DNA from: Geosiphon pyriformis
Taxonomy: Eukaryota; Glomeromycota; Glomeromycetes; Archaeosporales; Geosiphonaceae
DNA length: 64,000 bases
Direction: 5' to 3'
NCBI GenBank assembly: GCA_016748015.1
Contig: JAAOMT010000402.1
Coordinates: forward strand, 11,115-75,114
Shown here: positions 18,691-50,719 of the stretch, in pieces
Layout of the letters: every line of letters begins with the position of its first letter
Numbering within the stretch: the stretch's first letter is position 1
The notes under the pieces: model-generated
The model's input: the letters and a program-made list of their open reading frames with translations, nothing else
Told to the model about the DNA's origin: nothing
Database searches by the model: none
Made by a program: the position numbers and the translations under genes

Positions 18691-18699
18691 CTGACCATA

Positions 18700-23096: not shown

Positions 23097-23228
23097 TTAC
23101 ATGATCGAGCATTGGCCAGTACCGCTACCGTCGTCTGGGTCACCGGTTGGTCCTTTAATAGAGCCGTTACCGGGAGCAATAATTGAGAGGGGATTAAAGG
23201 ACGATTGATTGTTGGTTGTTGGTTGCAT
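23097..23228 (-). CDS. 43-residue CaaX-box peptide gene, copy A (candidate lipopeptide pheromone precursor)
   Basis: A 132-bp intronless ORF from ATG at 23228 to TAA at 23099-23097. It starts MQPTTNNQSSFNPLSIIAPG, continues NGSIKGPTGDPDDG and ends SGTGQCSIM. The last four residues form a CaaX box (Cys40-Ser-Ile-Met), predicting farnesylation, AAX removal and carboxymethylation. It has no signal peptide, as expected for a-factor-type precursors. The protein is identical to copies C, D and F; relative to F this copy has four nucleotide differences, all synonymous. A TATA box sits about 100 bp upstream. Prenylation is inferred from the motif; a pheromone role is a hypothesis. A small prenylated membrane-bound peptide of another kind is possible. 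Confidence 0.8.
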   Translation of the reverse strand: MQPTTNNQSSFNPLSIIAPGNGSIKGPTGDPDDGSGTGQCSIM

Positions 23229-23329
23229 TTTTTCAAATTATTTGATTTACTTTTAACGTTGTTGTTTTGCTTTTTGTCTTTGTTATTTCAGTGAGATTGA
23301 GAGAAAAGAAATTGGGAAAGCATCACCAG

Positions 23330-23336
23330 TTTTATA
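23330..23336 (-). promoter_or_regulatory. TATA box of CaaX gene copy A
   Basis: TATAAAA in context GCTATAAAACTGG, about 100 bp upstream of the ATG; the box and its distance are conserved in all six copies. Confidence 0.65.
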
Positions 23337-23499
23337 GCAAAGCATCATAGCCTTCTCGCTAAGACTTAATATTAGAAACAATACTAACTGAATCAGAATG
23401 GTAAAATGCAAAAAATGTGACTAATAAGAGGTTGCCTTTATTGTTCTTTTTAATTATTATTTCGATAGATGCGTTGTTAAGAAGATTTCGACAAAAAAC

Positions 23500-25660
23500 A
23501 TATATAGCTAGCATAGTACGATTTTATTTAGTTTGTTAACATAAAATTCCATAAGTAAAACACAATAATTATAATGATAGATTTTCAGGAATATTAATAA
23601 TTCCTTTAAAATATAAAAAATCTATGGCTCTAAAATATAATAAAAAATTGAAAAAAGAAATATCAAAAACTCTTTCAAAAAATTGGTTTGCGAATAACTT
23701 TTTTTTAAAATGGAACCGTTTTTCTAAACCATTCTTCTTAATTATTACCTCTTGATTATTCCGATATTTTAGCTATATATTTTACTTATTGAGGGTTTTC
23801 ATCATCATCATTAATGAATTAAATGGCATACTCAATTGATATAAAGGGAGAATAGAAAACATTACGAAAAACTAAGAATCCAGCAAAATTGAAAAAGCAT
23901 GCTTTCAGGTCCAAATTATGATTATAGATATTTTTATTTCTTTAAGTTTATACTTAACGGCAAAGTTTCTCTAAATGAAGATAAAAATTATGAAAACAAG
24001 AACAAATAACTGTTTATCCTTTTAAACTTAATTATTTTTTAGTTCAAAATATACATGAACTTTGGTCAAATTATTTTAGGGAATAGATTATTAATTTGAA
24101 GGTTGTTATTAATTTAAATTCTAATTAATTTAAAAATAAAAGTCATATTTACAGTAAATATAATAATATAAATATAATTGAAGGCGTAATAGGTAAATGG
24201 TACCTATTAAAAAAAAATATCAAAGAAGACAAAACTTTCCTTGGGCTTAATGAACTATATAATATGAGAGATACAGAGTGGACTATTTTTAATGCACCTT
24301 AAGTTAGTATACAGTATATATAAAATTAGAATATGAATTTCAATAACTTTAAACATTCCATTTGCATTTAGAACCTTTTTTTATAAAAATATTAAATCAA
24401 CACATGGTCCGATAAACCTTAATTGAATACAAATGCTTGGGTTTCAAGATTTTTTGTCACAGCTATTGCAAAACCAAAATTAATTAAATGATTTTCTTTT
24501 GTTGTAATATTAATTGTAAACTTTATTTTTTTCTTTCTAATTCAAAATATTAATTTTTAATCAAAATTAATAATACTTATTTTTATGCATTAATTTTAAA
24601 ATAAATTTGAATTTTACATAATTATTTACAGAAGCAATTTTTTTACAATTTATTATAATGAGGTTTTTTCAATTAAGTACTTGTAATTTAGAGATTATGG
24701 ATTTTAATTTTTTATAAGCAATTTTTGTTAATTTAAAATAATTTTTTTATTATATTTAGACAAAATGTGATCAAATTGCTATTTAACTACATACAATATA
24801 TATATGTTACATATTAAGTGCAGCTTATGCACTTTCTACATGTGACAAGTTATTTAGCATAGGCTTCTTCATTTTTAGTTCAGTAGGCTTTGGCTGAATC
24901 AAAGACAATGAGCAATGATTTGCAATGATATCCCCAACAATGGATGATCTTTAATTCAATAAGGAAAGAAATAGCATAAACAAATATTTTTCGTTGATAA
25001 TTGCATTTTCAATCTAGTTGGTCAGCAGATAAAAACCAACCAATATTTAATTAAGATTCTAATTTAGAGACCTAAATACGCTTAAGTGTATTATTTTGGA
25101 CGGATTTATTGACATGAGCATATGAAGAATAATATGATTTTTTTCCATATAACGCTTTTCCATATTATAATAATATTCAAATTTATGATAATGATTTTCG
25201 GAAAATAATGATAACTAAAATATTTTATTTTTAGGTGTAAAAATTAACTGTATTTATTCTTGATTATCTTTTCCTATATAAGCCATAAAATAATTCGATT
25301 GATAATCGTTACTTTATCTATCCATTTATAATATCTTCGTCTCGCCCACGCCATGGAAAGTTCGATTTCAGTAAATTAATTGGGATTTTAGCCTTAAAAA
25401 TCTTTAATGTTTTCATTTTTGATGATCTACTCAACAATCTTCCCATAAAAATTTTTTTTTTATAAATTCTGGACCAATCTTCAGAGCACACTTTCACTAC
25501 TATCATATGTTTTATTAATAAAATTAGTTTAATTCTTAAGAAGGCAAAGTTGCTTAGAAATTAACAATAAAAGAAAAATTCGCGTAACTAAATATGACTT
25601 TTAATCATTAAGGGCCATCAAAGAGAATAGATACCTAAATTAAGATATTAAATTCTACAA
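23500..25660. other. Intergenic, AT-rich; K2 5' flank at its right end
   Basis: No gene was recognised to about 25.2 kb. From about 25.27 kb the sequence resembles the 5' flank of K3 (29.25-29.6 kb), including the GCGTAAC motif. Confidence 0.55.
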
Positions 25661-25666
25661 CTTTTC

Positions 25667-25674
25667 TATAAAAA
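25667..25674 (+). promoter_or_regulatory. TATA box of kelch gene K2
   Basis: TATAAAAA, 66 bp before the ATG at 25733, at the position conserved in K1 and K3. Confidence 0.55.
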
Positions 25675-25732
25675 GTTTCAATATTTTTGACCATTATAAA
25701 CCTAATATACCATAATCTTGAAAAGAGCTCGA

Positions 25733-27402
25733 ATGATAAACCTATTTCTCATAATTCTTGTTTTTTTACAAAACGATGCGATTCTTGTTTCTTCCTATTT
25801 CTCGCCATCTCCTCGGCTGGCCCATATAGCTTCTCTAATTGATAAGAGAATTTATTTCGTTGGCGGAACAATAAATTTGATTGATTATGCAATTGATAAT
25901 GCATACCTAGATCTTCCTCAAAATTTTTCCACTAATTCACCCGCTTTTTATGAACTTGAAACATTACCCAGATCTCTAAATATATCCTTCACATCAGCTG
26001 AGGTGGTAAAAACCAAAAATATAACTGAAGTTATTGTATTTGATGGATATGTAAGTTTCTTAAGTCGAACTTTAATTATTAAAATACGTAGTTTTAATGC
26101 TCAAAAAAAAATTATTTTTCAAGAGGCTCGATCCCAAGGAGTATTATATTTATGCTTATAAAACAGCTCAAAATAAGCTCACATGGTTTCCAAATAATGA
26201 TGCTCAAACGGGAAATCCAGGGGCAAAGAGTTATATTAATACAGTAATTGATAAAAAAGGAAGAATATATTTTTGGGGAGGGACTCGGAATTTTACTCAC
26301 CTTGAGGATAAAGCCATGTATATATATGATACAAACTCTACATCCTGGACTAAAATTGAGCCAAAGAATTCTCCTTCACCAAGGCATTCTTATACTGCCA
26401 CATTATTACCAGATGGACGCATTATTTTTATTGGTGGGGTTGGCCATTTTTATCCAAATCCAGAAGCAGATCTGAGTGCGGTAATTTGCAATCTAAAGCT
26501 CGAGGGAAATTTATTATGAGTTCTTAAATTTTTGATTTTTTATATAGATCTTAATTTTTAATATCAATGGAAAGCCTGAGGATCCATGGTCTTATGAGGT
26601 TATTTAATATAAAAATATTAAATTAAATTTTTTTAATTTTGATCACACTAACTTTGGTAAAAAATATAAACAGTCAACAAAAAGCGTCGTTGCTCTAGGA
26701 TCTAGGAGGGGACATACAGCAATCCTTGGTAATTTAATAATTGATTGTAAATTTTTATTAATTGAATTTTTCTTTAATATCATTAAAACTATTTAGCTGC
26801 TGATGAATACAATATCATAATTTATGGAGGTCATGACAACTTCACTCGTCCAGCTTATCCTCTCATGGTTTTAGATACAAAAACATTTACGTGGTCAGTG
26901 CCAATTGTAGAATCTCTTCCTAACGATTTATCTGTCCTTTCTTATCATACCGCTACAAGATATCAAAACTTGATGATTATTGCATTTGGTAAGTCTTCTT
27001 AATGCGATACTTTTAATTTCTGCAATTCAAATTTTATAATAATATGTTTGCAATATAGGGGCTCATAATTTGACAAATCAAGTGTATAATTCGAGTAAAG
27101 AAATAAGAATATTCGATATATCTAACGGGACTTTTAAGTGGCTACAAAATTATGTAGCTCCATTAACTGTAATCGACTCTCTACCAAAAAATCCGAAAAA
27201 TTTAGGACTTATTATTGGAGTCCCTCTTGCTTCAATTGGTTTAATATTTTTGGGATTAGCTATTATAGTTATTTTATATCGTCGTCGTTTAACAAAGACT
27301 AATAATAATGAAGGAAGCACGACAAACAACCAAGTAATCCAAAATTCAGGATTTCATATTAAAGGGAACACAACAAACAATCAAGTAATCGAAAATCCAT
27401 GA
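25733..27402 (+). CDS. Kelch-repeat single-pass membrane protein (K2, intact)
   Basis: Six exons with the same boundaries as K1: 25733-26050, 26124-26480, 26548-26598, 26674-26728, 26797-26988, 27059-27402; 438 residues. It has a signal peptide, the five visible kelch motifs, a membrane helix (LGLIIGVPLASIGLIFLGLA) and a YRRRLTK stop-transfer. It differs from K1 mainly in the stalk, which is shorter, and in the tail, where an NTTNNQVI-type motif is duplicated. The propeller is very similar to K1. It lies between CaaX gene copies A and B. Function is unknown beyond a receptor-like topology. Confidence 0.82.
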
Positions 27403-28499
27403 GTTTAGTCACATTTATCAATGGCAATACCAAATATAATTTTTCAAAAATTTATGAAATTCTTAAAAAAGACTGAAAAAAAGTATTAAGACTGAATTTA
27501 CTATTAAGAAACGTAATTAATTATATTTTAATTGACCTTCCGATTGAAACCGCGCTCGGCTAGCTGAGGGTTAAATGATCGTCAGTTACCCCATATACAT
27601 GTACCATAAGATTGGTTTCATAAAGATAAATTCACCTCTGAATTCTGTTAAGTTTTTATTATAAACCCGATTGACAAGGCAAATTCATTTCAATTTAATA
27701 ACAGCTAAAACGAATACAGCTAAAAATTATATCTAATGAAAAGCTTTAATTTATTTAGGTGAATCATTTGATTTTTTGCATAGCTATTTTTTGGCCCAAT
27801 CCATGGTTAGTAAAATTGCTTGGAGTTCAAAATTAGATTCCCATCAACTACATATGAGTGAAAAAACTTTATCCATTCTAATTAATTCCAAAACCGATGA
27901 TAAAGAAAAATATGGCAATATACATTTCTTTTAGATGGTTATTTGTAGATGAAAAACAGGAAATATCTTTTATTTCTTAATAAACACAACGGAAATAGAA
28001 ATATCTAAAGCATATTTGCTTCAAAAGATAATCTTGAATTCATCAATGGTCACATTTAATTTACATAGTATAGAATGAAAAAAAATAATCAAACTTAGCG
28101 TAAGGCTTTGAGCATTGCTCTTGCTATAATAATCTCACGGTTTTCGAACTCTGCTTTCAGCATGTTACTTAATGTAAAGCTGATATACAGTGTATATAGT
28201 GTATACATTGTAAAAAACCTTTCAAAAGCTGAATTGTATCATATTCATGTTTAATATTATATGTTATTCATAAAATGCCTTCTCTAATCCTTCTTTAATG
28301 GATGAAAGCCAATATGTCTTTTGATCTCCTCGGGCATTGTTTAAGTATTTTAACAATGCATCTGTCAATCAATAATTTAAAAAATAAAAAATTCGGCATA
28401 TTATTTGTGATTTCCTATCGATTTTCGCTTTTTAACATTCTGTTTAAGTTATTATTGTTTCTAATGATAGATGTTATTGTGAAAGCTATGATGTTTTGC

Positions 28500-28506
28500 T
28501 ATAAAA
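28500..28506 (+). promoter_or_regulatory. TATA box of CaaX gene copy B
   Basis: TATAAAA about 100 bp upstream of the ATG, as in the intact copies. Confidence 0.55.
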
Positions 28507-28605
28507 CTGGAAGTGCTTTCCCAATTTCTTTTCATTCAATCTAACTAAATAACAAAGGGAAAAGCAAAGCAATAACATTTAAATTAAATCAAATAATTTG
28601 AAGAA

Positions 28606-28733
28606 ATGCAACCAACAACCAATAATCAATCCTTCAAGCCCTCTCAATTATCGTTCCCGGTAACGGGTCTATTAAAGGACCAACCGGTGACCCTGACGAC
28701 GGTAGTGGTACTGGCCAATGCTCGATCATGTAA
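28606..28733 (+). pseudogene. 43-residue CaaX peptide gene, copy B (frameshifted)
   Basis: The copy starts MQPTTNNQS at 28606 but has a net 4-base loss in codons 9-13 relative to the intact copies, so the frame shifts and the CaaX box is not reached. Downstream of the lesion the original frame is still open and would end GQCSIM at 28733. This suggests a fairly recent loss. TATA box and leader are still intact. Confidence 0.75.
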
Positions 28734-29518
28734 AGTCGAATATTATTGGCATTAGCAATTCACCTCTCCAATCCATCATCGGCAACAATTTATTATCAGC
28801 CGAAATTTATAAAAGATATGGCCATTCCTTCTGATTATACTTTTTTAAGAAGAACTTTAGAATTTTATCTAAATTAATACAAAACTAAATTTAGACTTTG
28901 CACAGGATCATTTAACCTTTAATCATGAATAATTCAATTTTTTTAGAAATATTTCGAATTTTGCAGGCTATTCTTGTATGGGATCTGGTTGCACAGCATT
29001 ATTCATTTTCAATGGTGTGTGTAGGTATTTATTCCCGCATCACTTTCATATTCATTTAGATTGAAAATAGTAATGACAATGGGAAACATAATATAACTTT
29101 AGAGTTAAATTAATTCCACACTATAATACATTTGTCATTGTTAGAACTTTTCTAGTTAGTTTTTTAGTGAAAATTTTATTTAACAAATAATATGAGAAGG
29201 GGTTTAAATTCAAATCCAAAAATAATTATTGAAAGGTCAAACTGATCGGGATCTAAACCTTTAAAAGCCTTTGTACATGCATAAACAATGATTTTTGATG
29301 ATCGATTCAATTCATTGATAGCGATCTTTCCATAAAACTAAATTTTCTATAAAACGCTGGGACCAGTCTACTAAGTATAGCATCACCTTCAAGTATCTAT
29401 GGTCATATGCTTTATTAATAAAAAAATATTAGAAATAATCTAAAATTAATTTTAATTCTTAAGAAAAGAATTTTCTAAACCAGAAGGCAAACTTGCTTAA
29501 AAATTAGTAAAAGAAACC

Positions 29519-29537
29519 ATTCGCGTAACCAAATATG
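29519..29537 (+). promoter_or_regulatory. Conserved GCGTAACCAAATATG motif upstream of K3
   Basis: Same motif and similar distance to the start as in K1. Confidence 0.4.
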
Positions 29538-29672
29538 CTTTACAATCATTAAGTGTTATCAAAGAGAATAGATACTTATTAAAAAATTCAGTTTTACAAC
29601 TTTTTTATAAAAAGCTTCAACCTTTTTGACCATTATTAAACCTAATATACCATTTTCTTGAAAAAAGGTCAA

Positions 29673-31395
29673 ATGATAAACCTATTTCTTATCATTCTTG
29701 TTTTATTACAAAACAATGCGATCCTTGTATCGTCCAATTTCACGCCATCCCCTCGGTGGGGCCATACAGCTTCTCTAATTGATAACAGAATTTATTTGGT
29801 TAGCGGAGGGATATTTCATAGTTATGCAGTTGATAACGCATACTTGGATCTATCTCAAAATTTCTCCACTGATTCGCCCGCGTTTTATGAATTTGAGACA
29901 TTACCCAAAATCTTTAAACGTGTCTTACGCATCAGCAGAGATAGTAAAAACTAAAGATAAAACTGAAGTAATTGTATTTGCGGGAGATGTAAGTTTCTTA
30001 AGTTTAGAACTTTATTTGTTAAAATACGCAGTTTTGATGCTCAAAAGATTTTTTTTAAAGTCGATAGATCCAAAGGAGTATATTTACACTTATAAATTCG
30101 CTCAAAATAAGCTCACCTGGTTTAGAAATAGTGATAATAAGTCGGGAAATTCAGAGGGCAAGGACAGAGATTGATACAGTTATTGATGAAAAAGGAAAAA
30201 TATATTTTTGGGGAGGAATTCGAAATAACGTTTATATGAATAAAAAAATGTATATATATGATACAAACTCTACATCCTGGACTCAAATCACACCATTGAA
30301 TTGTCCTTTACCAAGGTTTTCTTATACTGCCACATTATTACCAGATGGACGCATTATTTATATTGGTGGATCTAGTGGTTCTTATCCAGATCCAGAAGCA
30401 GATCTGAGTGCGGTAATTTGCAATCTAAAGCTCGAGGGAAATTTATTATGAGTTCTTAAATTTTTGATTTTTTATATAGATCTTAATTTTTAATATCAAT
30501 GGAAAGCCTGAGGATCCATGGTCTTATGAGGTTATTTAATATAAAAATATTAAATTAAATTTTTTTAATTTTGATGACACTAACTTTGGGTTAAAAATAT
30601 AAACAGTCAGCAAAAAGCGTCGTTGCTCTAGGATCTAGGAGGGGACATACAGCAATCCTTGGTAATTTAATAATTGATTGTAAATTTTTATTAATTGAAT
30701 TTTTCTTTAATATCATTAAAACTATTTAGCTGCTGATGAATACAATATCATAATTTATGGAGGTCATGACAACTTCACTCGTCCAGCTTATCCTCTCATG
30801 GTTTTAGATACAAAAACATTTACGTGGTCAGTGCCAATTGTAGAATCTCTTCCTAACAATTTATCTGTCCTTTCTTATCATACCGCTACAAGATATCAAA
30901 ACTTGATGATTATTGCATTTGGTAAGTCTGCTTATTGCGATACTTTTAATTTCCGCAATTCAAATCTTATAATAATATATTTGCAATATAGGGGCTCATA
31001 ACTTGACAGATCAAGTGTATAATCCGAGTAAAGAAATAAGAATATTCGATATATCTAACGGGACTTTTAAGTGGCTACAAAATTATGTAGCTCCATTAAT
31101 GCTCACGAAAATCACCAAAGCTCCTACACCTTCCACTGAAATTAACGTAACTCAAACAGCTACCGCTACCGCTGTACTAAAAAACTCGAAAAATTCAGGA
31201 CTTATTATTGGAGTCTCTATTGGTTCAATTATTTTAATATTTTTAGGATTAGCTATTATAGTTATTTTATATCGTCGTCGTTTAACAAAGACTAATAATA
31301 ATGAAGGAAGCACGACAAACAACCAATTAATCCAAAATCCAGGATTTCATATTCAAGGGAACACAACAAACAACCAAGTAATCGAAAATCCATGA
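29673..31395 (+). pseudogene. Kelch-repeat membrane protein gene K3, two frameshifts
   Basis: Six exons align with K1 and K2 (29673-29988, 30061-30412, 30480-30530, 30607-30661, 30730-30921, 30992-31395). Exon 1 has one extra A in the AAAA run near 29910, and exon 2 has one extra base near 30150, so the frame is broken twice. Splice sites, kelch motifs, membrane helix (SGLIIGVSIGSIILIFLGLA) and YRRRLTK are preserved. The stalk is longer and Thr-rich. Either it is a young pseudogene or the two single-base lesions are sequencing errors, at least the one in the A run. Confidence 0.7.
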
Positions 31396-33090
31396 GTTTA
31401 CCCACATTTATCAATGGCAGTACCAAATGTAATTTTTCAAAAAATTTATGAAATTCTTAAAAAGACACTGGAAAAAATATTAAGACGGCTTTTGAATTTA
31501 TTATTAAGAAACGTAATTAATTATATTTTAATTGACCTACCGATTGAAACCGCTCTCGGCTAGCTGAAGGTTAAAAGATGGTCAGTTACCCATAAAGATA
31601 TACTTTAAGCTTAGCATATTTATGAAAAATCTTTTAAAGAGAAAAGCAGCAGATTGTAATATCAAAGTTTATACTTGTTGAGTTATTGCTTTATAAATTA
31701 TCAGTCTATTGATGGTGGTTGATTAGCCTGAATCTCGAAAAAAAAAAAAAAAAAATTACCGATTTTAGGTTTTTATAATAAACTATTGTCAGATATCTAT
31801 TTATACGCATATAATTGTGAAATTAATTAACTTTCTACAAATCTATTGAAAAATTCTTCATTTGTTTATTTAGGCTAAAGATAGCATCTTAAAAGATTAA
31901 AAACAGCCCCATAATTTATCATGGGTTTACTTTGTCGCAAATGTAGAATTAATATTTAAAAGCCTATAAAATTTTCCCACATTATAATGATTTTGAATAT
32001 AATTTGTTTTATCGTATTTTAAGAAATTACAAATCATCTTAAAAAAATCCAAATTTCTAACATAGAAAAATTAATCTATTAATAAAGTTCTTTTCAAATA
32101 ATATAAGACATTTGATATTAATAATTTCAGAGTTATCTTTATAAGTTTATACTTTTTATTTCGAAATAAATTCACTTATAAATCGATCATAATTGCGTAT
32201 TAGTTTTTATTTTATTAGATATATCGATAAAAATATATTAATAAAATAAATGTGACTTGTCTTTTGATTGTATTAAACCAAAAATAAAGTTATTAAGTTT
32301 ATTATTAACAGCAAGTCAAAGTAATTTAAAATTTTTAAAATAATATCTATTTATTTGATTTAATTTCAACTTAGAAACTGTGATTAGAAATTCATGTTAT
32401 ATAAATTCAGTTTTTATTAGTTTGTGTAAAATAATTTTTTTTAGTTTAATTCCAATTAGTTTTTGCCAATTTAATAAAACTTTCCCTTTAAAAATTAGAC
32501 CACTGAAAATTATTAAAATAAAATGAGAATTTTAAGATACATTTTTTTAAAATATCTTAATATCTAATAATTATTTATTTTATTGTATATTCTTTATTCA
32601 AAAATTAAATTATAATAAAAATAATTTTTTTTGTAATAGTTTTCTTTACTATTTAAAAATTATTTATTAAAATTATTTCATTTTTTGATTAATTCGCGAT
32701 CCACATCTAATGTACAGTAGATGTGTTGTACGATAATAATTGGTGGTTGGATTACATCGTGAATGGCAAGGAAATAAAATAAAAATAAAAAATAATTTAT
32801 TAGATAAGAATAAAAATAATTTTTTTTGCGAACTATATATATAAAGTTTATTAAATAAATATTATTTAAATTTGAAGTAAATTAATGTCATGATAGTTTA
32901 AAAAATTTATGTTTTTTTGATTTTTCATTTATTTGATTAAAATTTTTTGAAAAGGTAGTTTTTTTTTAAATAAGGGTCAATCATCAACTAATATCTTTTA
33001 AACCAAACAGCTTTCAATTTTTGTTGTAAATTAACTTATTTTATTGGGATTTTAATTTAATCAAAAAATTAATTTTGAAAAAGTCTAAGG
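31396..33090. other. Intergenic, AT-rich
   Basis: 31.40-31.75 kb is kelch 3' flank shared with K2 and K4. The remainder is AT-rich and I see no gene. Confidence 0.6.
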
Positions 33091-35390
33091 TTAGGAGCTA
33101 TTACTAATATCTGATTTATTATCACTTTCACACTCTTCCTCAAGAGCATTAGTAATATTAACGTTTCTGTCAAATTCTTCTCCCTTATCACTCTTTCCGA
33201 CAACTCTGTTAATTCTACTATTCTCGCTAGATTGATCATTATTATTTCTCTCATTAGCATTATGATCCTCATCCTCAACATTTTCAAAATGAACCCGAGC
33301 ACGTTGCATCGCTTCGAAATATCTAATCGGTAAATGATTTTGGAAAAATGAAGGTAAAATTCGTTCCATCCATATCAAAGGACTCCTAGCAGGATGTTCG
33401 TGAAGTGGTTTAGTACGAAAAACGTCTTTTCTACTTGACCATAATTTACCATTTTTCATAAATTTTATTCCTGTTTCATTTTCCGTGTCAACTTCTTCTC
33501 CTTTCAATGTATTCCATCCAAAAATTGAAGCTAAAGAATAGTCACTCCTTTTTCGTTCCACAATAACCGGTTCAACCGCAGTATCAAAAGAATCGCAAGT
33601 CGATACTGGTTTCCTACCATTCTGGAAAAATCTTACTCCTTCACCAACATGCGCATAATTTAACAGATTCATTTTATTAACGAGACGTCTGATACCAGGA
33701 TCTTCATAGCCGGGCGGTAATTTTGTGATGATATCGGTATCATTGATCACTCGCCATAAAGTATTTGGGCGGTCGAAAGGATCATTTGAAACGGCTGAAA
33801 AATGAGCCGCGAAATCTGCGTCACCGATAGCCGGGGTACCGAAGAGATATCCGTCTCGTAAAATGCAATTCTCGCCAAGATCTAATGGGGAACGAAGGAG
33901 GCGAGAGTAGAATAGAGTTCCAAGGGCGGCACCTAATGAATGACCAGTTACCCAGAGATTTATTGGTTGATCAAGACTAAAGCTGGAAGAGTTGTTATTT
34001 GATGTTGAAGCTGATGAAGACTGCCTAGAACGAATTTGTAAAGCTTTAGCGCGAATTGCTTTTATGATTGTTATATATGGACTTGCTGAATGACCTCTTG
34101 AGGTTTTGTGGCCTCCGTCTGGAAAGAGGGAGGTGTAAAAACCTTCATGAATTTCCCCAAATACATATCCTCTTTGGTAGTGAAACATAAATGAATGAGG
34201 GGTGTAAATGTTTGATGGATGTTGAATAATAAAAATTTAAACGATCTTTTGAAATCATCATTATTCAAAAACTCTTTTTAAATTACCTCGCATCAATGCG
34301 TTGAATCATCGAATCTACCAAGAAATCCTCGAAATCAGTTGGTGTCGTTCCTTTAAATACGACCACTATAAATCGATGTTCATATGACCAAAACATTCCA
34401 GCGAATGGTCCACCCAGCGAATTTAATTCTGATAAAGAGGTAAATTCTAATCCCCATTTTTGAGATTGTTCACGTATACGAAGTTCGCTTTCATACAACT
34501 GTCGATTCACATCTTGATATGCTTCCGAAGTTCGTTCTAATTTATTTTTAGCGAGATCTGTAATCTTTTTATGAGCATTACGAACCTTCATATCATCACG
34601 TTCATAGACAATCGCGGACATTAGAAGGAGAGTTTCGGCAATATCTAAATTAAAGGGTCGAGCTTTTTTCGTGCTGGTTATATCAAATTTTGTAGCTTGA
34701 TGGTGGTATTTTTGTGTAGTCGGTAGGGGTTGTTCTAACCCTAGAAGACCATCATTTATAATTTCAGAGACTTCTTCGGAAAATAATCTTGGATCCCCTA
34801 GGTAAAAGAAAATTAAAGTTATGTGAGTATTGGTGAATCATCAATTCAATTTTTGAGTTTAAATTTTAAATCACTTATTAGTGACAAATTAAAAATTTCC
34901 CATGTTTATACTCACACCAATTAACCGGACTCAAACCGTCACCCCATTTCTTCGAGATTCCATTTAACACATTTCCCAATCCACAATAAAAAGATAGTTT
35001 TAATGATAATTCGACAACTACCAGCGAAATGACAATAGTAGGGAACACGGTCATAATCAAAATAAAATTCACGGGATGAAAAAGTGGCATTGACCAATCA
35101 AATAATATTGTGAATAGTAAATTTCTTATAGCGCGATGAACATAAACCATATAAGTTAAAGAGGGAAAAAGTGTTGGAAGAGAAGTAAATGATTGTGTAG
35201 CTGCTGATTTATTTTTATGCGTTTCTGTTAAATCGCGAAAATGGGGATTAGCATCTTCATTATAACTCTTGATATAGTCACTAATAGATGGGGGAGACGT
35301 TTTGAGGTGGAATTGGGAGAGTGGATTCGATTTTTGATCAGGTACAGAGTTATTTGTGAATTGAAGGAAAGTTGATTTTTGAGTTGGCAT
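33091..35390 (-). CDS. Class 3 (fungal-type) lipase family protein
   Basis: Three exons: 35390-34916, 34797-34287, 34171-33091; 688 residues. The N-terminal part has hydrophobic segments (PVNFILIMTVFPTIVISLVVVEL region) suggesting membrane association. The lipase domain shows FIVVVFKGT (oxyanion region), RGYVFGEIHEGFY across the second intron, WVTGHSLGAALG with nucleophile Ser407, YLFGTPAIGD, RVINDTDIITKLPP (acid) and NYAHVGEGV (His). The C-terminus is acidic and Asn-rich. All triad positions are present, so it is a plausible active acylglycerol lipase; the substrate is unknown. The second acceptor (CCAAAG) was chosen because it restores the RGYVFGE motif. It is not closely related to the L1-L4 cluster. 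Confidence 0.85.
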
Positions 35391-38300: not shown

Positions 38301-38628
38301 ATTTTTATCAATCAAGAAATAATTTGAATGTTTCATTTTTAATCTATAGAAAAAATTCAAAAGCCAATTTGCATTTAACAAAAATTTTTCAGTACCTTAA
38401 TGAAAATTTTTTATTATGCATGAAATTATAAGATTTTAGAATAATTCCAGTTCATTGTAACAGTTACAAATTTTTCTCATTTATAGTTTTTTCTATATCA
38501 GAGGGAAATTAAATTCAATTAAATTAAACTAGATTAAATTAAGTAAAGTAATACAAGTTTTTTGGATTAAGATCAAAGAAATAATATTAGAAACCTAATG
38601 TCATGTTTAAAAATTTTGTGAATCGGAA
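35391..38628. other. Intergenic, AT-rich
   Basis: About 3.2 kb with no recognised gene. A short GAT/GATGAT tract lies near 35685. Confidence 0.6.
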
Positions 38629-40240
38629 TCAAGACCAATCCTCTTAAATATAAAAAAAAAAAGTGTTAAAATTTTTAAATGATAAATTTTATAAAAATTT
38701 TCGGTTAATTTCTTACCTTCAGGAAGATAGACAAATTCTGTTAAAATTGACATTAAGAGAAGAAAGAAAAAAAGTTTAAATAAGTTAATCCATAAAAATT
38801 TTCAAAATGAATAAAGTTAATCAATAAAAATCTTCAAAAATAAAAAAAAAAACTAAACCTTTTAAAAAATTAATCATTCGGAAAGTTAAAAGTCGACTTG
38901 AATAAACTGCTTTTGGATGAATATTGGGTGGTGATTTAGCTGTTTCCAATGTTTCTTTTACGAGTTTATCTGCTTCGGAAAACTGTAAATACTCAGTTGT
39001 AGAAGAGTAATTATTAAAACGTCCAAGATCATAAAGTCTCAATCTAACTTGAGTAACAGCAGGACGATTCGATGGAATACTATCCCAACATTCTTCTATT
39101 AGTTCAGCAAGACAAGGTGGAATATGAAAAGTGATTTCAGGTCTAATACCATTTAAAATATCTATGACAAGTTTGGAGTCATGAGGACGATCATGAAAAG
39201 GAGGCTTTCCTGTTGCCAATTCCCATAATAACATTCCGAAACTATAAATATCACCAGCTTTATCGAACTCTTCACCTCGTAAAACTTCAGGTGGTATGTA
39301 TGGAATTACTCCAAATATTCCTTTTTCTGCTAATTTCTTGTTAGCAGGTTGACATAATCCGAGGTCTGAAACATTTGCAAATTCTCCATTGGCCAGGCGA
39401 TAAATTAGAATGTTACCAGAGTGTAGGTCACGATGAACTAAACCAGCAGAATGAACTGTGATAAGACCTGACGCAATTCCTGAAGCTATTCTCAACCTAT
39501 CAGACCAATAGCTAGAATAAAAATTTGATGATAGATAATCTCGCATATCTCCATGTTCGGCAAATTCCATTACAAATCCGTAATCAAGTGTTTCCGGGTT
39601 TTGAGTGATCCCAATAACATCAGAAATACCAATCACAAATTCGGGGTTATTTGCCATTATAGAACTTTGAATATTTATCTATTAAGAGACACCCCCCCCC
39701 CCGTAAAAATTTTTATCAAGTTCAAAAATTAAAAAAATATAAAAAGATCAAATTTTCAATGAAAAATTACTCAATTACCTTTTTAAAGAGTTCATCCCCC
39801 TGTCTTGAATCATTCATAAATTTTACTGCAACATTTATCGATCCATTTCTTTTAAATTTCGTTTCACCATGGTGCTTTAAAGTCTCGAAATCAATCATTC
39901 CATCAATCCATGTTGCTTTATAAAAAATACCAAAACCTCCTTGGGCAATATAGGAAATATCTGTCAAACGTTCATATGGAATCCATTCATAGTGATGAAT
40001 CTCATTGTAGAGGTTGGGATTATAAATTGGATTTTTGATTATCTCGTCAATTGCTTGATTTCCACTTGAAAAATCTTTATATAGATTTTGAAAAATTATG
40101 ATTTTACATGTCGTGCAATCATTGTATCTATTATATCTCATGCTCAATTTGCATTTTTTACATTTATTACAATTATGAGGCTTTTCTGGTCGAGTTCTCT
40201 TGCATCGAAATTTTTTTATTGATGAAATCAATAAACCCAT
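38629..40240 (-). CDS. TKL protein kinase
   Basis: Exon 1 40240-39779 and exon 2 from 39678 join in phase 0. Exon 2 could be read to a stop at 38821, but its last codons come from a poly-A tract, so I prefer small exons 38737-38717 and 38642-38629, ending ...FVYLPEEDWS; this tail is uncertain. The N-terminus has paired Cys motifs (CNKCKKC and CTTC), possibly zinc-binding. The kinase domain has a Gly loop (AQGGFGIFYKA, about 100-109), VAVK with Lys140, HRDLHSGN with Asp238, DLG (Asp259) in place of DFG, PPE, and DIYSFGMLLWEL. All catalytic residues are present. Role and substrates are unknown; such kinases are greatly expanded in Glomeromycotina. Confidence 0.85.
39692..39702. repeat. Poly-C run in the kinase intron
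   Basis: A run of about 11 C inside the intron between kinase exons 1 and 2. This is unusual in such an AT-rich region and is a likely site of sequencing length error. Confidence 0.6.
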
Positions 40241-41340
40241 ATTCGGTATAAGAAACGTGGATGAAATGTGTTTGTCGATGTTTATGAATATTTTTGTTTT
40301 TCAATACACTTTCTCTTAAGTTAGGAATGAGAGTTTTTAAAAAAGTTTGGGAACGAGATAAAAATGACATCAACTTTTTTACGATTTGGGAAATCTGATG
40401 TTTTAATCGGTTTTTATTTATCGATAAACATTTCTATTTTGATGATCATACGTTACAATCGGAATATTTGGGCATCGAACAATGTTAATTTAAAGTTTTC
40501 CATTGTTTTGATAGACTTTTCCATGGAACAATGCCCCCGCTGTTCTGATCGGATCGAACATTAATCAGAGACTTTTTGTAAATATTCAAGATCTTTTAAC
40601 ATCAAAATAATTTATATATTAATATAAAATAATAATTTTTGAAAACTTTTGTATTTTTATAAAATGTCTGAAATCAATGTCAAATGAAATAAATTTTTTT
40701 CATTTTTCTTGGACTTTGATTTTTTAAGCTTATAAACAAACTTATGACATAAACATAAAAGTTTCAAGTATCAAAGGCATTAATAACTTTCTATATAAAT
40801 ATATATATAACATTTCTAAAAATTTACAATAAAAACAATTCCAGCATCACAATTCAATAAATAGGTCTTCTTATCACATACCAAGTAAAAGAGTCAATAA
40901 CCTTTTTTAATTCACTAACAAAATAAATGATCATTGTTTTTAATTAAAAACTATTTGTTTTGTTGTATTATAACAAATAGGTTTTGATTCAATCCAAAAA
41001 TTTTGATTTATTCCTTGATAAATGAACCAAAATATTTTGAAATTATCAAAAGGATTCTATTATCATTTAAAAGTGTACACAATGTAAAATTTCAAGAGAA
41101 TTTATTAGCAGTAAATGTCTCATTATTATTATTCAAAATGTTCGAACTTTCATTCTTTAAATTGCAAGTTAAACTGGGAATATTAAATTAATTGGCTTTC
41201 ATTTGATTTTATCTAAAGCCAAAAAAATAAGGCTTAATACTAAGAAGCAAACAATTTAGTAGCCTTTCTATTGAATAAATGACGGAAACCTGTATTATTC
41301 TTGAAAACACAAAATATTGTGATCCCTAAGATTTCTTTTG
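40241..41340. other. Intergenic
   Basis: Kinase upstream region followed by AT-rich sequence. No gene was recognised. Confidence 0.55.
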
Positions 41341-41691
41341 TTCACCAAACTCAATACTAGAAACCAAGTCAAATATAACGACAATAAAAAATTTAGTAAA
41401 CAACATTGCACTAATGCTAAATATATATAATTAAGATTCAAAATAATATCTATATACTTTGGTTGTAAATAGTTTTAATAACTTTTCTTTTGTTTTTCAT
41501 TATTAAAAGTTAAATAATCATGTAAAGAGCCTAAATTAGTATTATATTAATTTAGATAAAATTCTAAAGTTCCCCTTGAAAAAGTATAAATTAGAAGGAA
41601 TGGCTATGACTTTTATAAATTTCGGTCGATAATAAATTGTTGACGGTGATGGATTGAAGAGGAGAATTATTATTGTGGATAAAATGTAACT

Positions 41692-41823
41692 TTACATAAT
41701 CGAGCATTGGCCGGTACCACTACCGTCGTCTGGGTCACCGGTTGGTCCTTTAATAGACCCGTTACCCGGAGCGATAATTGAGAGGGGATTAAAGGACGAT
41801 TGATTGTTGGTTGTTGGTTGCAT
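41692..41823 (-). CDS. 43-residue CaaX-box peptide gene, copy C (candidate lipopeptide pheromone precursor)
   Basis: ATG at 41823, TAA at 41694-41692. The encoded peptide is identical to copies A, D and F, ending GTGQCSIM. Compared with copy F, its inverted-repeat partner, there are six base differences, all synonymous (for example GGC/GGG, AGC/AGT, ACT/ACC, ATC/ATT). It has a conserved leader and TATA box. It is transcribed outward from the inverted-repeat centre. Confidence 0.8.
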   Translation of the reverse strand: MQPTTNNQSSFNPLSIIAPGNGSIKGPTGDPDDGSGTGQCSIM

Positions 41824-41924
41824 TTTTTCAAATTATTTGATTTACTTTTAACGTTATTGTTTTGCTTTTTGTCTTTGTTATTTCAGTGAGATTGAGGGAA
41901 AAGAAATTGGGAAAGCACCACCAG

Positions 41925-41931
41925 TTTTATA
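41925..41931 (-). promoter_or_regulatory. TATA box of CaaX gene copy C
   Basis: TATAAAA in context GCTATAAAACTGG, about 100 bp upstream of the ATG. Confidence 0.65.
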
Positions 41932-43045
41932 GCAAAACATCATAGTCTTCACGCTAAAATTAAGTATTAGAAACAATACTAAATAAATCAGAATAATAAA
42001 ATGCAAAAAATGTGACTAATAATAAGTTGCGTTTATTGTTCTTTTTAATCATTATTTCGATGGATGCATTGTTAAGCTATCTCAACAATGCCCCAAATAT
42101 TTAAAACAAAAAATTATTTATTTGATCATCAGTCAAAAAAGGTTGGAGATGGAGCATTATTCTTTGATATCATACCCCCTATTTAATAAAACTATAGTAC
42201 GGTAATGGTACAAATTCAGCCATTAAGGAGATTGCCTATGTGTTTATCTTTAGTTATGCATTAATTCATAAAACCGAAAACAGGATTTTCTTAAGAACAA
42301 TGCTAAAAGCATTGCTTTAATATTTGATTATTCAGTTCCTAATAATCACTTGACGCTATGTATCACTAAAATTCAAATAGATTTCATTCTTGATAAATTA
42401 AGATTGTGTTTTTGGGAGCAAAATATCCTTATATTCCTAATTTTTTAGATGCAAATAAGAGAGTTTGCTATTTTTCTGGTGTAAAACAGCAGTCTATGAA
42501 GAAATGAATTTACCGTATTGTTCTTTGTTGGTCAAGTTTGGAAATTAATCGGAATTGATAAATTTTAATTAATTAATTAATGTCAACTACTAACCATTTT
42601 GCTACATATGAATTTTGAGCTGAGAATACTTATACGGAAATTAATCTTGAAAATTACAAACTTTTTATTAGATCTAATTCTGTGGAACCACAGTATGTGT
42701 AAATATTTTTAAATCATTACTACCAAGTATTTGATGGTAAATTTTGCTTGTAAAATCAAGATTAAGTTTAGCAAACAGGGAAAGCCGGAGAATTGAATAG
42801 GTTTTTTCCAGTTTGGAATTTGCTAACTAGCTTAATAAACTGCAAGATGAATTGAACTATTTTTCTCAGAACAAAATCTTTAAATGAAAAAATAAATATC
42901 TTTCTATTTAAATTTAAAAATTACTCAATTATTTTGTAAATTTCAATAATTCCTATGAAATTTTTTGAGAATTTATTCAATTCAATTTTTCTGGCTAAAT
43001 CGATACTTAGTTTCCAAATTTCCAAATTTTTGGCTTTGAGCATTA

Positions 43046-43234
43046 TTAAATAAAGGTCAATGTCACTTCAAAATCTTCTCTCTTTAAATATCTCACTTTT
43101 AAAGGTAGTAACTTTGTATTGTGATTATTTTGATCAAGCAATATTTTTGAATAAAAAATTGTTTCATAATGAAGATGCCTATTGTAAGTTTTATTCAAAT
43201 GGCTACTCTTGAAATCTTCAAACAAATTATACAT
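43046..43234 (-). other. Short ORF in the 3' flank of CaaX copy D, similar to 47514-47741
   Basis: A 62-codon frame sharing LKxRYLKREDFExTLT and DQNNxN with the 75-codon frame at 47514-47741 in the opposite arm. The pair may be a decayed exon fragment carried by the repeat. Similarity is expected from the inverted repeat itself, so coding status is doubtful. Confidence 0.2.
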
Positions 43235-43896
43235 AAGCTAGTAATAAAATTATTTTATTCACATCTCTTGCAAAAATATTACATGACTATTTCCCAGTTT
43301 TAGGCAATCAGTATCGTATAAAAATTTATTTTATAACATTTTATTTGTATTGATATTAAAATCTTCGCCCAATTTTTGAATTGGAACTAATCATAAAATA
43401 ACTTTTTGTATAACCCAAAATTAAATAATTTACTGAATCAAAACACAGTATAAAAGTTTGTTTCAATCATTAAAATATTGTTTCTGCCATTTTAAGAAAT
43501 TATCCTTTAATTTCAAGCCATGGTTCAAAGATATTTATAGAAGACCTGAATAACTTTCTTTATTGGTGATAAAATTTTTGAAAAAAAACTTGCTTTTTCC
43601 AAATTAGCTATTTTTTGTGCTATTTTTTATTGGTAGATTAATATTATATTATATAAAAACAAGTCATGATATAAAATTATTTAAAAATCTAGTCAAAATA
43701 CATTGCCCTAAATGCTAATATATAATTAAGATTAAAACAAGGAACGAGAAATTCTCCTAATAATGTATATATTTGAAAGGTTAGGCAACTATGTAAAGAG
43801 TTTAAATTCGGCAATAAACCGGAGGTAACGGCCTTAATTCGGTTGATAGTAATTCGGTGACGGTGAGGAGGATCTTTAATGCGACTAATATCGAAT

Positions 43897-44028
43897 TTAC
43901 ATAATTGAGCATTGACCGGTACCGCTACCATCATCTGGATCACCGGTTGGTCCTTTAATAGAGCCATTGCCCGGAGCGATAATTGAGAGGGGATTAAAGG
44001 AAGATTGATTATTAGTTGTTGGTTGCAT
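43897..44028 (-). CDS. 43-residue CaaX-box peptide gene, copy D (candidate lipopeptide pheromone precursor)
   Basis: ATG at 44028, TAA at 43899-43897. Same peptide as copies A, C and F although the DNA differs from copy F at 12 positions, every one a synonymous third-base change. This is the strongest sign in the window that the 43-codon ORF is translated and under purifying selection. It ends GTGQCSIM (CaaX). Leader and TATA box are conserved. Confidence 0.82.
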   Translation of the reverse strand: MQPTTNNQSSFNPLSIIAPGNGSIKGPTGDPDDGSGTGQCSIM

Positions 44029-44129
44029 TTCTTCAAATTGTTTGATTTACTTTAAATGTTATTGCTTTGATTTTTTCTCTTTGTTATTTAGTTAGATTGA
44101 ATGAAAAAAATTTGGGAAAGCACTCCCAA

Positions 44130-44136
44130 TTTTATA
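44130..44136 (-). promoter_or_regulatory. TATA box of CaaX gene copy D
   Basis: TATAAAA, about 100 bp upstream of the ATG. Confidence 0.65.
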
Positions 44137-44460
44137 GCAAAACATCATAGCCTTCACGCTAACATCTATCATCAGAAACAATAGTAACTTAAACACAATG
44201 TTAAAAATGCAAAATCGATAGAAAATCATAAATAATATGTTGAATTTATTGTTTTTTAGATTATTGATTGACAGATGCATTGTTAAGATATTTAAACAAT
44301 GCTCAAAAGATCTAAAAAGCATATTGCGTTTCAAAATTCATTATCAATTAAAGAAGGATTAGAGAAGGCATTTTATTCATAACATGTAATATTAAACATA
44401 CATACGATACAATTCAGCCATTGAGAAGGTTTTTTACCATGTATACATTATATATTAGCT

Positions 44461-46149
44461 TTACATTAATTAACATGCTGAAACCAGAGTTCGAAAAACG
44501 TGATATTTTTGCAAGAGTAATGCTCAAAGCCTTGCACTAAGTTTGATTATTCAATTTTTCTACCCTATGTAAATTAAATTTGACCATTGATGATTCAAAA
44601 TTCTCTTTTTGAAGCAAATATGCTTTAGATATTTCTATTTTCATTGTGTTTATTCAGAAATAAAAGATATTTCCTGTTTTCCATCTACAAATAACCATCT
44701 ATAAGAAATATATATCGTCATATTTTTCTTTATCATTCAATTTTGGAATTCATTGGAATGGATAAAATTTTTTCATTCATACGTAGTTGATGGGAATATA
44801 ATATTGGACTCCAAGCAATTTTACTAATCAAGGATTGGACCAAAAAATAGCTATGCAAAAAATCAATTGATTTACTTAAATAAATTAAAGCTTTTCATTA
44901 GATATGATTTTCAGCTGTATTTATTTTTTTAGAAATATTTATAAAGATAATTTTGCAGGCTACTCTTGTGATGATTGTTACCATATGGCAATAATATTTC
45001 ATGTTTTGTGTTTGGTCATTGATATAGGTTTGAGAATGTTCTTGCTTGAAGTTAATTTCATTTGCAAAATGAAGATTAATTATAATAAACAGGCGAATGA
45101 GGATGTATAAATTTTTAGTTTATAAAGCTAGCATCAAATTACAAGGATAAATTGCCTTAATTTTCTGAATTTTCTGTAGGGAATCAAATAAAACTTAATA
45201 AATTGTAGTTTCAAATACCTAAAAAGGCTATGAAAATACAAACATTAGATTTTTGTTTAACAATAATAAATATAATAGATTATTTTATATTTTAAAATAA
45301 TTATTATTTATTCTTGAAAAGTAATTAAAATTTTTAATAATATACAGTTTTTTAGATATTGTTTCTAAAATTGCAAAAATTTTATTATTGGGATTGAATA
45401 TATCTTCAATTTTAATCAGACTAATATTATTTTTTTATTAATCATATGATTTTGGTTGAAACTGCATTTGTTTTTAAGCCTTATTATATTGTTAATTTTC
45501 AATTTTCTGTTTCTAACAATAAATTGATAAACTTCCACATAAAATAATATATGTAAATCAATTTTAAAAGTTTTTGAGTAAATGATTAAAAAAACTTAAA
45601 TTTAGATTTGACTTCTTTGTTAATAACATAATTGTAAATTAGCACATAAATTCTAAATATTTGTTTATTATTTCATATATTACAACCAATTTCATTATAT
45701 TTTAAATCAATAATCTGTTTTTTGCGTGTTGTATCTATATGTTTTTGAAAAATCGTTTATTTGGCAACTTTTAAGATACATTAAAGTAAGAAAAAGTAGC
45801 CAAGTATAAATGCCAATGACATTGAAAAATTTTATATTTTTTATTAATATGTATGGCATATCCAATTAGGGTGATTCAGGAAATAAATAATTCAAAACGT
45901 TTCTTTAAAACAAATTTCATAAATTGTTATTGTTACCAAGGAAACTAGAAGGCTTTTTAATTTGCATTAAAGAAATTTCAATTCCAATCTCTAAAATATT
46001 TTTTGGTTCGGAATATTCAAAAAATACTTCTAGTCATAAATTTCAAATTCAAAGTTCTTTTATTTTTTTTCCTATCACACAAGAATAGAACAATCAATAT
46101 TTTTATTATTTTCTGTAAAAAATTCTCATTAATACAAAGGTGCCGAGAA
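44461..46149. other. Spacer of the inverted repeat
   Basis: 44.46-44.95 kb resembles the far 5' flank of CaaX unit B (27.7-28.2 kb, inverted). The centre at about 45.1-46.1 kb is AT-rich. A 68-codon frame at 44904-45110 has no recognisable features. Confidence 0.5.
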
Positions 46150-46483
46150 TTATGAATTGGTGGACACCTGATATATAATGTACAAATGTAAAAAACCTTC
46201 TCAATTGCGGGATTTGTACCGTATTTATGTTTAATATTATATGCTATTAAAAACTATGCCTTCTCTAATTTTTCTTTAACTGATAATCAATTTTGAAAGC
46301 TAATATGCTTTCAGATCTTTTGGGGCATTTTTTAATATCTTAAAACTGCATCTGTCAATAAATAAATGAAAGAACAATAAATTTAACAAATTATTTGTAA
46401 TTTTCTATCGAGTTTTGCTTTTTAAACTTATGATCAAGTTATTATTGTTTCTAATTTTTGATGTTAGGATTAAACTGTCTTGC

Positions 46484-46490
46484 TATAAAA
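46484..46490 (+). promoter_or_regulatory. TATA box of CaaX gene copy E
   Basis: TATAAAA, 107 bp upstream of the ATG at 46591. Confidence 0.6.
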
Positions 46491-46590
46491 CTAAAAGTGC
46501 TTCCCCAATTTCTTTTCATTCAATCTAACTAAAATAACAAAGAGAAAAGCAAAACAATAACATTTAAAGTAAATCAAATAATTTGAAGAA

Positions 46591-46722
46591 ATGCAACAAA
46601 CAACCAATGATCAATCTTCCTTTAATTTTCTCTCAATTATCACTCCAGGTAATGCCTCTATTAAAGGACCAACCGGTGACCCAGACGATGGTAGCGGTAC
46701 CCGTCAATGCTCAATTATGTAA
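46591..46722 (+). CDS. 43-residue CaaX-box peptide gene, copy E (sequence variant)
   Basis: Open over the full 44 codons but with six replacements relative to the common peptide: P3Q, N7D, P13F, A18T, G22A and G38R. The core IKGPTGDPDDGSGT and the CaaX box QCSIM are kept. It is the inverted-repeat partner of copy D. G38R lies two residues before the prenylated Cys, so if a short mature lipopeptide is released this copy would encode a different product. It could equally be a copy under relaxed constraint. Confidence 0.72.
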   Translation: MQQTTNDQSSFNFLSIITPGNASIKGPTGDPDDGSGTRQCSIM

Positions 46723-47513
46723 AGTCAGTTATTATTGACATTAGTCATCCTCCTCACCGTTACCAAATTACTATCAACCGAGATTTGCAAAGCTTAAGGC
46801 TGTTACCTCCGTTTTATGTTGAATTTGAACCCTTTACATGATTACCTAGCCTTCAAATATACATGTCATTAGGGGAATTTCTCTTTCACTGTTTTAATCT
46901 TAATTATACATTAGCATTTAGTGCAATGTAGTTTACAATATTATTAAATAATTTTATATTATGACTTGTTTTATAAAATATAATTAATCTACGAAATAGA
47001 TATAAAATAATCCCGTATCAAACTTAATCAAAATAACACAAAAAAGATATCTACTCTGGAAAAAGGCAAATATTTTTTTCATTAACTTTTTTTGGATTTA
47101 TTAACAATAAATAAAGCTATTCAGGCTTTCTATAAATATCTTTTAACTATAGCTTGAAATTCAAAGGTATTTTCTCAATATGGCAAAAACAATGTTTTTT
47201 TGATTGAAACAAACTTTTATACTGTGTTTTAATTTAGTATATCTATTATGTAGAATTTTTAATCGAAATTGATTTATTTATTTTGAAGTTTTCGTAAAAA
47301 AATCTGCGGCATTTTATCATTGTAGAAAAGTTTCCTCAACAAGAAAGATAGTTTCGGTATGCGTGATAAAAGATATTGTACAGACAAATCAAACTTGGTA
47401 GAGAAATAGACTGTTATATAGATATTGTTTACCTAAAACTAGTAAATACTCATGTAATATCTTTGCAAAAAATTTGAATAAAGTGATTCGATTACTAGCT
47501 TAGGTATAATTTT

Positions 47514-47741
47514 TTGAACATTTCACGAAAGAGCTATTTGAATGAAACCTACAATTGGTATCTTCTGTATGAAACCACTTTTTTTAATTTTTCAACATCA
47601 ACAACATTGCATGATCAAAATAATTACAATAGAATGTTCTCACCTTTAAAGTTGAGATATTTAAAAAGAGAAGATTTTGAAATGACACTGACCTTATTTA
47701 ATAATGATCAAACCCAGAAATATAAAGATTTAAAAATTTAG
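47514..47741 (+). other. Short ORF in the 3' flank of CaaX copy E
   Basis: A 75-codon frame with RYLKREDFEMTLTLFNNDQ near its end, paired with 43046-43234. It may be a remnant of a larger gene. No family was assigned. Confidence 0.2.
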
Positions 47742-48711
47742 TATTTACAGACTAAGAATTTAATAGGTATCATTAATATTTACAAAATAATTAAGTAATT
47801 TTTAAATTTAACTAGAAAAATTTTCATTTATTTATTTAAAGATTTTGGACATCTATATATTTTATTTTGTTCTTAAAAAAATAGATTAATTCATCTTTGG
47901 AATTTGCTAACTAGCTTAATAAAGAGCAAAGTGGAAAACCTATTCAATTCCTCGGCTTGCCCTGTTTACTAAGCCTAATCTTTGATATTTGCAAGCAAAA
48001 TTAACCATCACAGGATCAGATCAAATGAAAAATTTAAGGTTCTCAAAATTAGCTTTCTGCACAAGTATTTGAATTAAAAAACTTATCATTTCTGATTAAT
48101 TTCTAAACTTAACTAATAAAGGACAATATGATAAATTCATTTTTTCATAGACTGGTGTTTTACACTAGGAAAATAGCAAATCTTTTATTTTTCATCTAAA
48201 AATTAGAAATATAAGGATATTTTGCTCCCAAAAACACAATCTTAATTTATCAAGAATGAAATCTATTTGAATTTTAGTGATACATAGCGTCAAGTGATTA
48301 TTAGGAACTGAATAATCAAATATTAAAGCAATGCTTTTAGCATTGTTCTTAAGAAAATCCTGTTTTCGGTTTTATGAATTAATGCATAACTAAAGATAAA
48401 CACATAGACAATCTCCTTAATGGCTGAATTTGTACCATTACCGTACCGTAGTTTTATTAAATAGGGGGTATGATATCAAAGAATAATGCTCCATCTCCAA
48501 CCTTTTTTGACTGATGATCAAATAAATAATTTTTTGTTTTAAATATTTGGGGCATTGTTGAGATAGCTTAACAATGCATCTATCCAAATAATGATTAAAA
48601 AGAACAATAAATGCAACCTCTTATTAGTCACATTTTTTGCATTTTATCATTCTGATTCATTTAGTATTGTTTCTAATACTTAATGTTAGCGTGAAGACTA
48701 TGATGTTTTGC

Positions 48712-48718
48712 TATAAAA
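48712..48718 (+). promoter_or_regulatory. TATA box of CaaX gene copy F
   Basis: TATAAAA in context GCTATAAAACTGG, 108 bp before the ATG. Confidence 0.65.
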
Positions 48719-48819
48719 CTGGTGGTGCTTTCCCAATTTCTTTTCCCTCAAGCTCACTGAAATAACAAAGACAAAAAGCAAAACAATAACGTTAAAAGTA
48801 AATCAAATAATTTGAAAAA

Positions 48820-48951
48820 ATGCAACCAACAACCAACAATCAATCGTCCTTTAATCCCCTCTCAATTATCGCTCCGGGTAATGGCTCTATTAAAGGACCA
48901 ACCGGTGACCCTGACGACGGTAGCGGTACTGGCCAATGCTCGATCATGTAA
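48820..48951 (+). CDS. 43-residue CaaX-box peptide gene, copy F (candidate lipopeptide pheromone precursor)
   Basis: ATG at 48820, TAA at 48949-48951. It encodes the common peptide ending GTGQCSIM. It is the partner of copy C in the inverted repeat; the two differ only synonymously. The ATG sits in an A-rich context (TTTGAAAAAATG). The composition (Gly, Pro, Asn, Asp-rich, one Lys, one Cys) and lack of signal peptide fit a non-classically exported prenylated peptide. Confidence 0.8.
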   Translation: MQPTTNNQSSFNPLSIIAPGNGSIKGPTGDPDDGSGTGQCSIM

Positions 48952-50713: not shown

Positions 50714-50719
50714 TATTTT

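Follow-up and report, generated by a model that had tools for sequence, protein, structure and literature searches.

In the ascomycete yeasts, Saccharomyces cerevisiae MFA1/2 and the Schizosaccharomyces pombe M-factor are made as short precursors that end in a CaaX box, lack a signal peptide and are encoded by two or three genes per peptide. Putative a-factors of the Leotiomycetes, found by BLAST-independent means, are 45-64 amino acids long with an N-terminus rich in serine and threonine; they end mostly in CTVM, in a few species in CSIM, and 87 of them were noted to have the Gly-Tyr motif that lies near the C-terminus in a-factors of filamentous ascomycetes (PMC10569646). The mating of arbuscular mycorrhizal fungi is a long-standing question in a group long thought asexual. 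Reports of 2013 gave Rhizophagus one STE3 receptor and an STE6 exporter, and the yeast sex-pheromone pathway was reported as complete except for STE5, while no peptide pheromone gene was found by a protocol that also missed the pheromone genes of Ustilago maydis (Halary et al. 2013, PMC3834313). Among the matches listed for the open-licence PMC literature, no title or opening of an abstract announces such a gene for Glomeromycotina, and nothing on a pheromone of arbuscular mycorrhizal fungi came from PMC6281316 or PMC4692070. Here we describe a family of short genes, six copies of which lie in a 64,000-nucleotide stretch of contig JAAOMT010000402.1 (positions 11,115 to 75,114 of the forward strand; hereafter the window). 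They probably specify an a-factor-like precursor that would give rise to a farnesylated lipopeptide, secreted and sensed by STE3.

All six window copies lie where the original prediction had placed them, three on each strand and with the lengths that it gave. The 43-residue peptide ending in CSIM that it described is encoded by four of them, c1 (23097..23228, minus strand), c3 (41692..41823, minus), c4 (43897..44028, minus) and c6 (48820..48951, plus), which are intact and share exactly the consensus peptide MQPTTNNQSSFNPLSIIAPGNGSIKGPTGDPDDGSGTGQCSIM with its core GNGSIKGPTGDPDDGSG. Of the other two, copy c5 (46591..46722, plus) is an intact open reading frame (ORF) that keeps CSIM and carries six substitutions (P3Q, N7D, P13F, A18T, G22A and G38R), and c2 (28606..28733, plus) is broken by a frameshift and an in-frame TAA, its C-terminal half still being readable in a different frame. 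A CaaX ending by itself means little, since among the 366 window ORFs of 20-100 amino acids (ATG to stop) eight fit a loose CaaX pattern, five of them from the peptide family and three from the 361 others. The G+C content of the window is 27%, which together with kinase, Sel1, class-3 lipase and many HMG-box genes suits Glomeromycotina, so that the host is probably an arbuscular mycorrhizal fungus. Two exact rDNA primer patterns had no match in the assembly, where rDNA may be missing or withheld.

Searching the 124.7 Mb assembly (406 contigs, the window being part of contig C216) with the peptide gave 37 matches, of which 33 are intact copies spread over 12 contigs. All 33 encode 43 amino acids, well within the size of a precursor below 100 residues, end in CSIM and keep the CaaX cysteine, C40. 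Twenty-four of the 37 matches are 100% identical over the 43 residues, seven carry one or two changes, and two are intact and divergent (window copy c5 and one copy on C356). The last four matches are the broken copy c2 and three decayed relics, at C353:140157 and on C83 and C393; one relic still ends in CSIM, one ends in CLIM, and the relic on C83 has lost its ending. Nearly half of the intact copies (16 of 33) sit on two contigs, 11 on C380 and 5 on C241. Some pairs are nearly identical at kilobase scale (L008/L009, 98.1% over 2879 aligned positions; L013/L014, 93.9% over 3141), and uncollapsed haplotypes may inflate the copy number a little. That 24 peptides are identical despite strongly differing synonymous sites puts the feature far beyond chance.

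The selection analysis covered the 33 intact copies, which comprise 29 distinct DNA sequences and form 528 pairs. The mean proportion of synonymous differences (pS) is 0.39 and the nonsynonymous proportion (pN) 0.017, corresponding to a dN/dS ratio of 0.032, and pS exceeds 0.3 in 370 of the 528 pairs, so that the copies are not merely young. Within the 24 copies of identical peptide, 1, 0 and 32 sites vary at codon positions 1, 2 and 3, respectively. All 46 derived states among them are synonymous, against an expectation of roughly one quarter, and over the 33 intact copies 45 synonymous stand beside 27 nonsynonymous derived states, at an expected synonymous share of 0.24-0.28; binomial P values on these counts ignore shared descent, and the 24 copies were chosen for their identical peptides. 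We have next to no doubt that the family is real, codes for a peptide and is under selection; in it, numerous gene copies at dispersed places preserve a single peptide even as their synonymous sites diverge. A non-functional ORF borne on a repeat or transposon, kept alike by young copies or gene conversion, could draw on the kilobase-scale identity of some copies and on the four broken or decayed ones. We nevertheless reject it as very improbable: conversion alone cannot spare synonymous changes only, as it would have to do for a peptide that has barely changed, and the synonymous/nonsynonymous contrast speaks strongly against it. A widely dispersed element is also made unlikely by a 300-nt promoter probe, for which at least 32 genome matches were obtained, 31 of which coincide with known copies or relics; with matches almost confined to these places, the unit has the appearance of a small gene. 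The sole probe match without a known copy beside it lies at C394:182215-182311.

The substitutions are unevenly placed along the peptide. Residues 19-43 do not vary in 31 of the 33 intact copies, where substitutions are confined to residues 7, 10, 15, 16 and 18; the chance that five variable positions all fall within residues 2-18 is 0.007, for a border drawn after the data had been seen. Judged by sequence, this pattern would suit a mature peptide preceded by a pro-region. The two exceptions are the most divergent copies, L034 with eight changes and the window copy at 46591 with six. Both keep CSIM, their pN/pS values against the nearest copy are 0.39 and 0.35, respectively, and they could be variants that still function or genes in slow decay.

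Concerning gene structure, 22 of 34 copies have an in-frame stop that precedes the ATG by 6 to 45 nt with no AG in between, so that no canonical acceptor can join an upstream exon in frame there. The original prediction had itself raised the possibility that the ORF belongs to a larger gene as an internal exon. For such an exon, internal or last, speak the AG found between stop and ATG in the other 12 of 34 copies and open frames of up to 95 codons upstream of some copies. Longer ORFs of up to 349 amino acids occur at C241 and other loci. Considering the 22 copies closed upstream and the short ORFs on C380, where the longest stop-to-stop ORF (counted from 90 codons) reaches only 105 amino acids in four loci (L039-L042), we reject the exon, to which we assign a negligible probability; the sequence describes a complete small gene. 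The G+C content is 0.47 in the ORF vs 0.26 in its flanks. In line with the predicted lack of a signal peptide, the highest 19-residue Kyte-Doolittle mean is 0.12, a crude test.

Upstream of the ATG, a TATAAA box and three ATTGTT/AACAAT boxes stand out, which in copy L001 lie near -122 and near -223, -207 and -146, respectively. In 14 representatives chosen from 34 aligned rows (L030, L034, c2 and c5 are among those left out), the three boxes score 0.93, 0.98 and 1.00 vs a mean of 0.74, with 17, 5 and 0 of 234 six-mers scoring higher; when all 34 rows are taken, their ranks among the 234 are 37, 8 and 1, and that of the TATA box is 4. The upstream region of L030 is unrelated to the others. Counted on both strands, the density of ATTGTT per 400 nt is 3.82 upstream of the copies, 0.32 downstream and 0.79 in the window at large. 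The third box is found in the window at 23377..23382 (c1, minus strand, -154 from the ATG), 28454..28459 (c2, plus, -152), 41972..41977 (c3, minus, -154), 44177..44182 (c4, minus, -154), 46444..46449 (c5, plus, -147) and 48666..48671 (c6, plus, -154). An inverted ATTGTT/AACAAT pair with 6-14 nt spacing precedes 26 of 34 copies; within the window it occurs at four places, all upstream of copies and with the form ATTGTT-N10-AACAAT: 28336..28357 (c2, plus), 42068..42089 (c3, minus), 44279..44300 (c4, minus) and 48554..48575 (c6, plus). A 23-place composite pattern gave 16 matches genome-wide, 15 of them upstream of copies, compared with 1 for the reversed control; as the pattern was drawn from the family, these matches show exclusivity, not a regulon. 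A relic at window positions 18672-19002 resembles the upstream region of the peptide gene and is followed by no peptide ORF.

For MAT1-2-1 of Fusarium graminearum, an HMG-box mating-type protein, the reported core site is ATTGTT, the complement of the SRY/SOX element AACAAT (PMC4559316). By analogy we infer that an HMG protein may act on the promoters of the peptide genes; the genome holds at least 71 HMG-box stretches.

The receptor and processing enzymes to which the original prediction had looked are present in the genome, namely STE3, the carboxyl methyltransferase ICMT and a farnesyltransferase beta chain. The genome search for STE3 (PF02076) gave a single locus, C303:334886-335808, in two stretches. 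A three-exon model with splice sites chosen by eye is open for 526 residues, it has hydrophobic stretches that can be grouped into seven, and its first 301 residues cover the whole Pfam STE3 model with 239.5 bits. On this gene model STE3 is intact and present as a single receptor gene, the number also reported for the putative pathway of Rhizophagus (PMC3834313), and the peptide family is a candidate for the pheromone gene that the Rhizophagus survey lacked. STE3 counts among families that are at least 99% fungal (PMC10406608); compared with solved structures, the model found no relative, with one chance-level match at an E value of 0.41. STE2 had no match in the genome search, and the controls of that search gave no match either. 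Among solved structures, the beta chains of farnesyltransferase come closest to a prenyltransferase exon found on C320, and the same kind of comparison identified ICMT as encoded on C80; both are housekeeping enzymes and carry little weight. An HMG-box stretch lies about 10 kb from STE3 (C303:345623-345820), a proximity that may be due to chance given the number of such stretches in the genome.

Given a single receptor of this kind and no rival for the role of its ligand, STE3 is our best guess for the receptor of the peptide. A lipopeptide that uses the a-factor processing route and is aimed outside the species, at a plant host, other microbes or endobacteria, appears improbable to us. The high copy number does suggest a demand for dose, copies accumulate on C380 and C241, and chemotropic roles have been given to STE3 receptors of plant-associated fungi; however, a receptor of the matching class is encoded in the same genome, and the boxes in the promoter suggest regulators of the mating-type HMG kind.

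Several observations weigh against an a-factor-like pheromone sensed by STE3. No peptide copy lies on the STE3 contig C303, all 37 matches being elsewhere, and there is no ATTGTT/AACAAT within 1 kb upstream of STE3, so a shared control of ligand and receptor was not seen. The ATTGTT boxes were spotted by eye in the alignment before their conservation was tested. Both divergent intact copies are altered on both sides of the border, some of the changes falling inside residues 19-43. A Pfam scan of the peptide returned no family at E values up to 10, the yeast a-factor model MFA1_2 (PF17317) gave eight weak matches in the genome (best E value 1.85), none at a peptide copy, and the Gly-Tyr motif is absent from a peptide that holds no Tyr at all. 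An alignment search of prokaryote and virus contig collections, which are uninformative here, gave no homologue. The a-factor-like character claimed by the original prediction is supported on most counts: selection, the invariant C-terminal half, the closed 5' end, the TATA/ATTGTT promoter and the presence of STE3, farnesyltransferase beta and ICMT speak for it, whereas the unmatched yeast model, the missing Gly-Tyr motif and the lack of a promoter link to STE3 do not.

CaaX tails are also carried by Ras, Rho, G-gamma and chaperones, and the peptide might be prenylated and remain inside the cell as a small membrane adaptor or anchor instead of being secreted as a signal. The authors of the Leotiomycete survey likewise emphasise that pheromones are not alone in having a CaaX box (PMC10569646). 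We regard an intracellular anchor as unlikely, though less so than a signal to other organisms: with no Pfam domain there is no recognisable G-gamma or GTPase, and the many copies, the invariant 25-residue C-terminal part behind a freer N-terminal stretch and the ATTGTT promoter fit a signal better. A G-protein gamma subunit in particular was rejected, as no GGL domain was found before the CaaX box in the Pfam scan.

Compared with ascomycete a-factor precursors, the family agrees in its short length, CaaX end, lack of a signal peptide, several genes for one peptide and a C-terminal part more conserved than the N-terminal one. It differs in that no sequence relation was detected, the Gly-Tyr motif is missing, the copy number is about ten times that of yeast and the host is probably outside Dikarya. 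We do not file it under yeast MFA1_2, whose model matches no copy, nor under the a-factors of filamentous ascomycetes, for want of the Gly-Tyr motif. With basidiomycete lipopeptide pheromones it shares the class of CaaX lipopeptide ligand together with an STE3-type receptor; unlike at basidiomycete P/R loci, no copy lies on the STE3 contig, mostly one peptide is encoded instead of allelic variants, and there is no Pfam match. The P/R arrangement was rejected, STE3 being on C303 and the peptide genes on other contigs.

Taken by its sequence features, the peptide is likely a prenylated lipopeptide signal. If it matures as an a-factor would, the 43-residue precursor would be made in the cytosol and lipidated at Cys40 by farnesyltransferase, Ser-Ile-Met would be cut off and the cysteine methylated by ICMT. 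Removal of residues 1 to about 18-21 would then leave roughly (P)GNGSIKGPTGDPDDGSGTGQC-farnesyl-OMe, which an ABC exporter would release and the single STE3 receptor would sense, HMG-box regulators on the ATTGTT boxes presumably switching the peptide genes on. With its 43 residues known and its lipid form predicted, the peptide can be synthesised and tested.

Because the genes for the putative ligand and its receptor occur in one genome, and STE2 was not detected in a search without a positive control, we favour self-signalling over an exchange between two sexes; it could serve homothallic mating or the sensing of kin ahead of hyphal fusion. A link to mating is what we infer from these features. 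A transcriptome study of 2020 on coexisting R. irregularis isolates reported that mating-pheromone genes were not upregulated (PMC7490403); an autocrine pheromone role is reported for the asexual Fusarium oxysporum (PMC13097639), and colonies of Rhizophagus intraradices are reported to fuse through their hyphae (PMC6455062). For the full picture, a first arbuscular mycorrhizal peptide pheromone system, farnesylated, encoded by 33 intact copies, under HMG control resembling that of mating type, sensed by the organism's own STE3 and directed at itself in cryptic mating or in kin recognition before hyphal fusion, we see about an even chance.

The peptide genes in the window are adjoined by a second repeated gene family with four copies (15417-17163, 25539-27595, 29482-31742 and 50716-52972), stretches of which are 79-93% alike; two of its ORFs have no Pfam match. 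The cluster is flanked by kinase gene pieces that are 95.9% identical (window positions 1-434 and 55429-55862). Three pieces of class-3 lipase genes lie at 3254-3616, 12222-12614 and 33094-34236, and a 300-N run extends over about 58256-58555. An ORF at 50009-50449 matches DDE_3 transposase.

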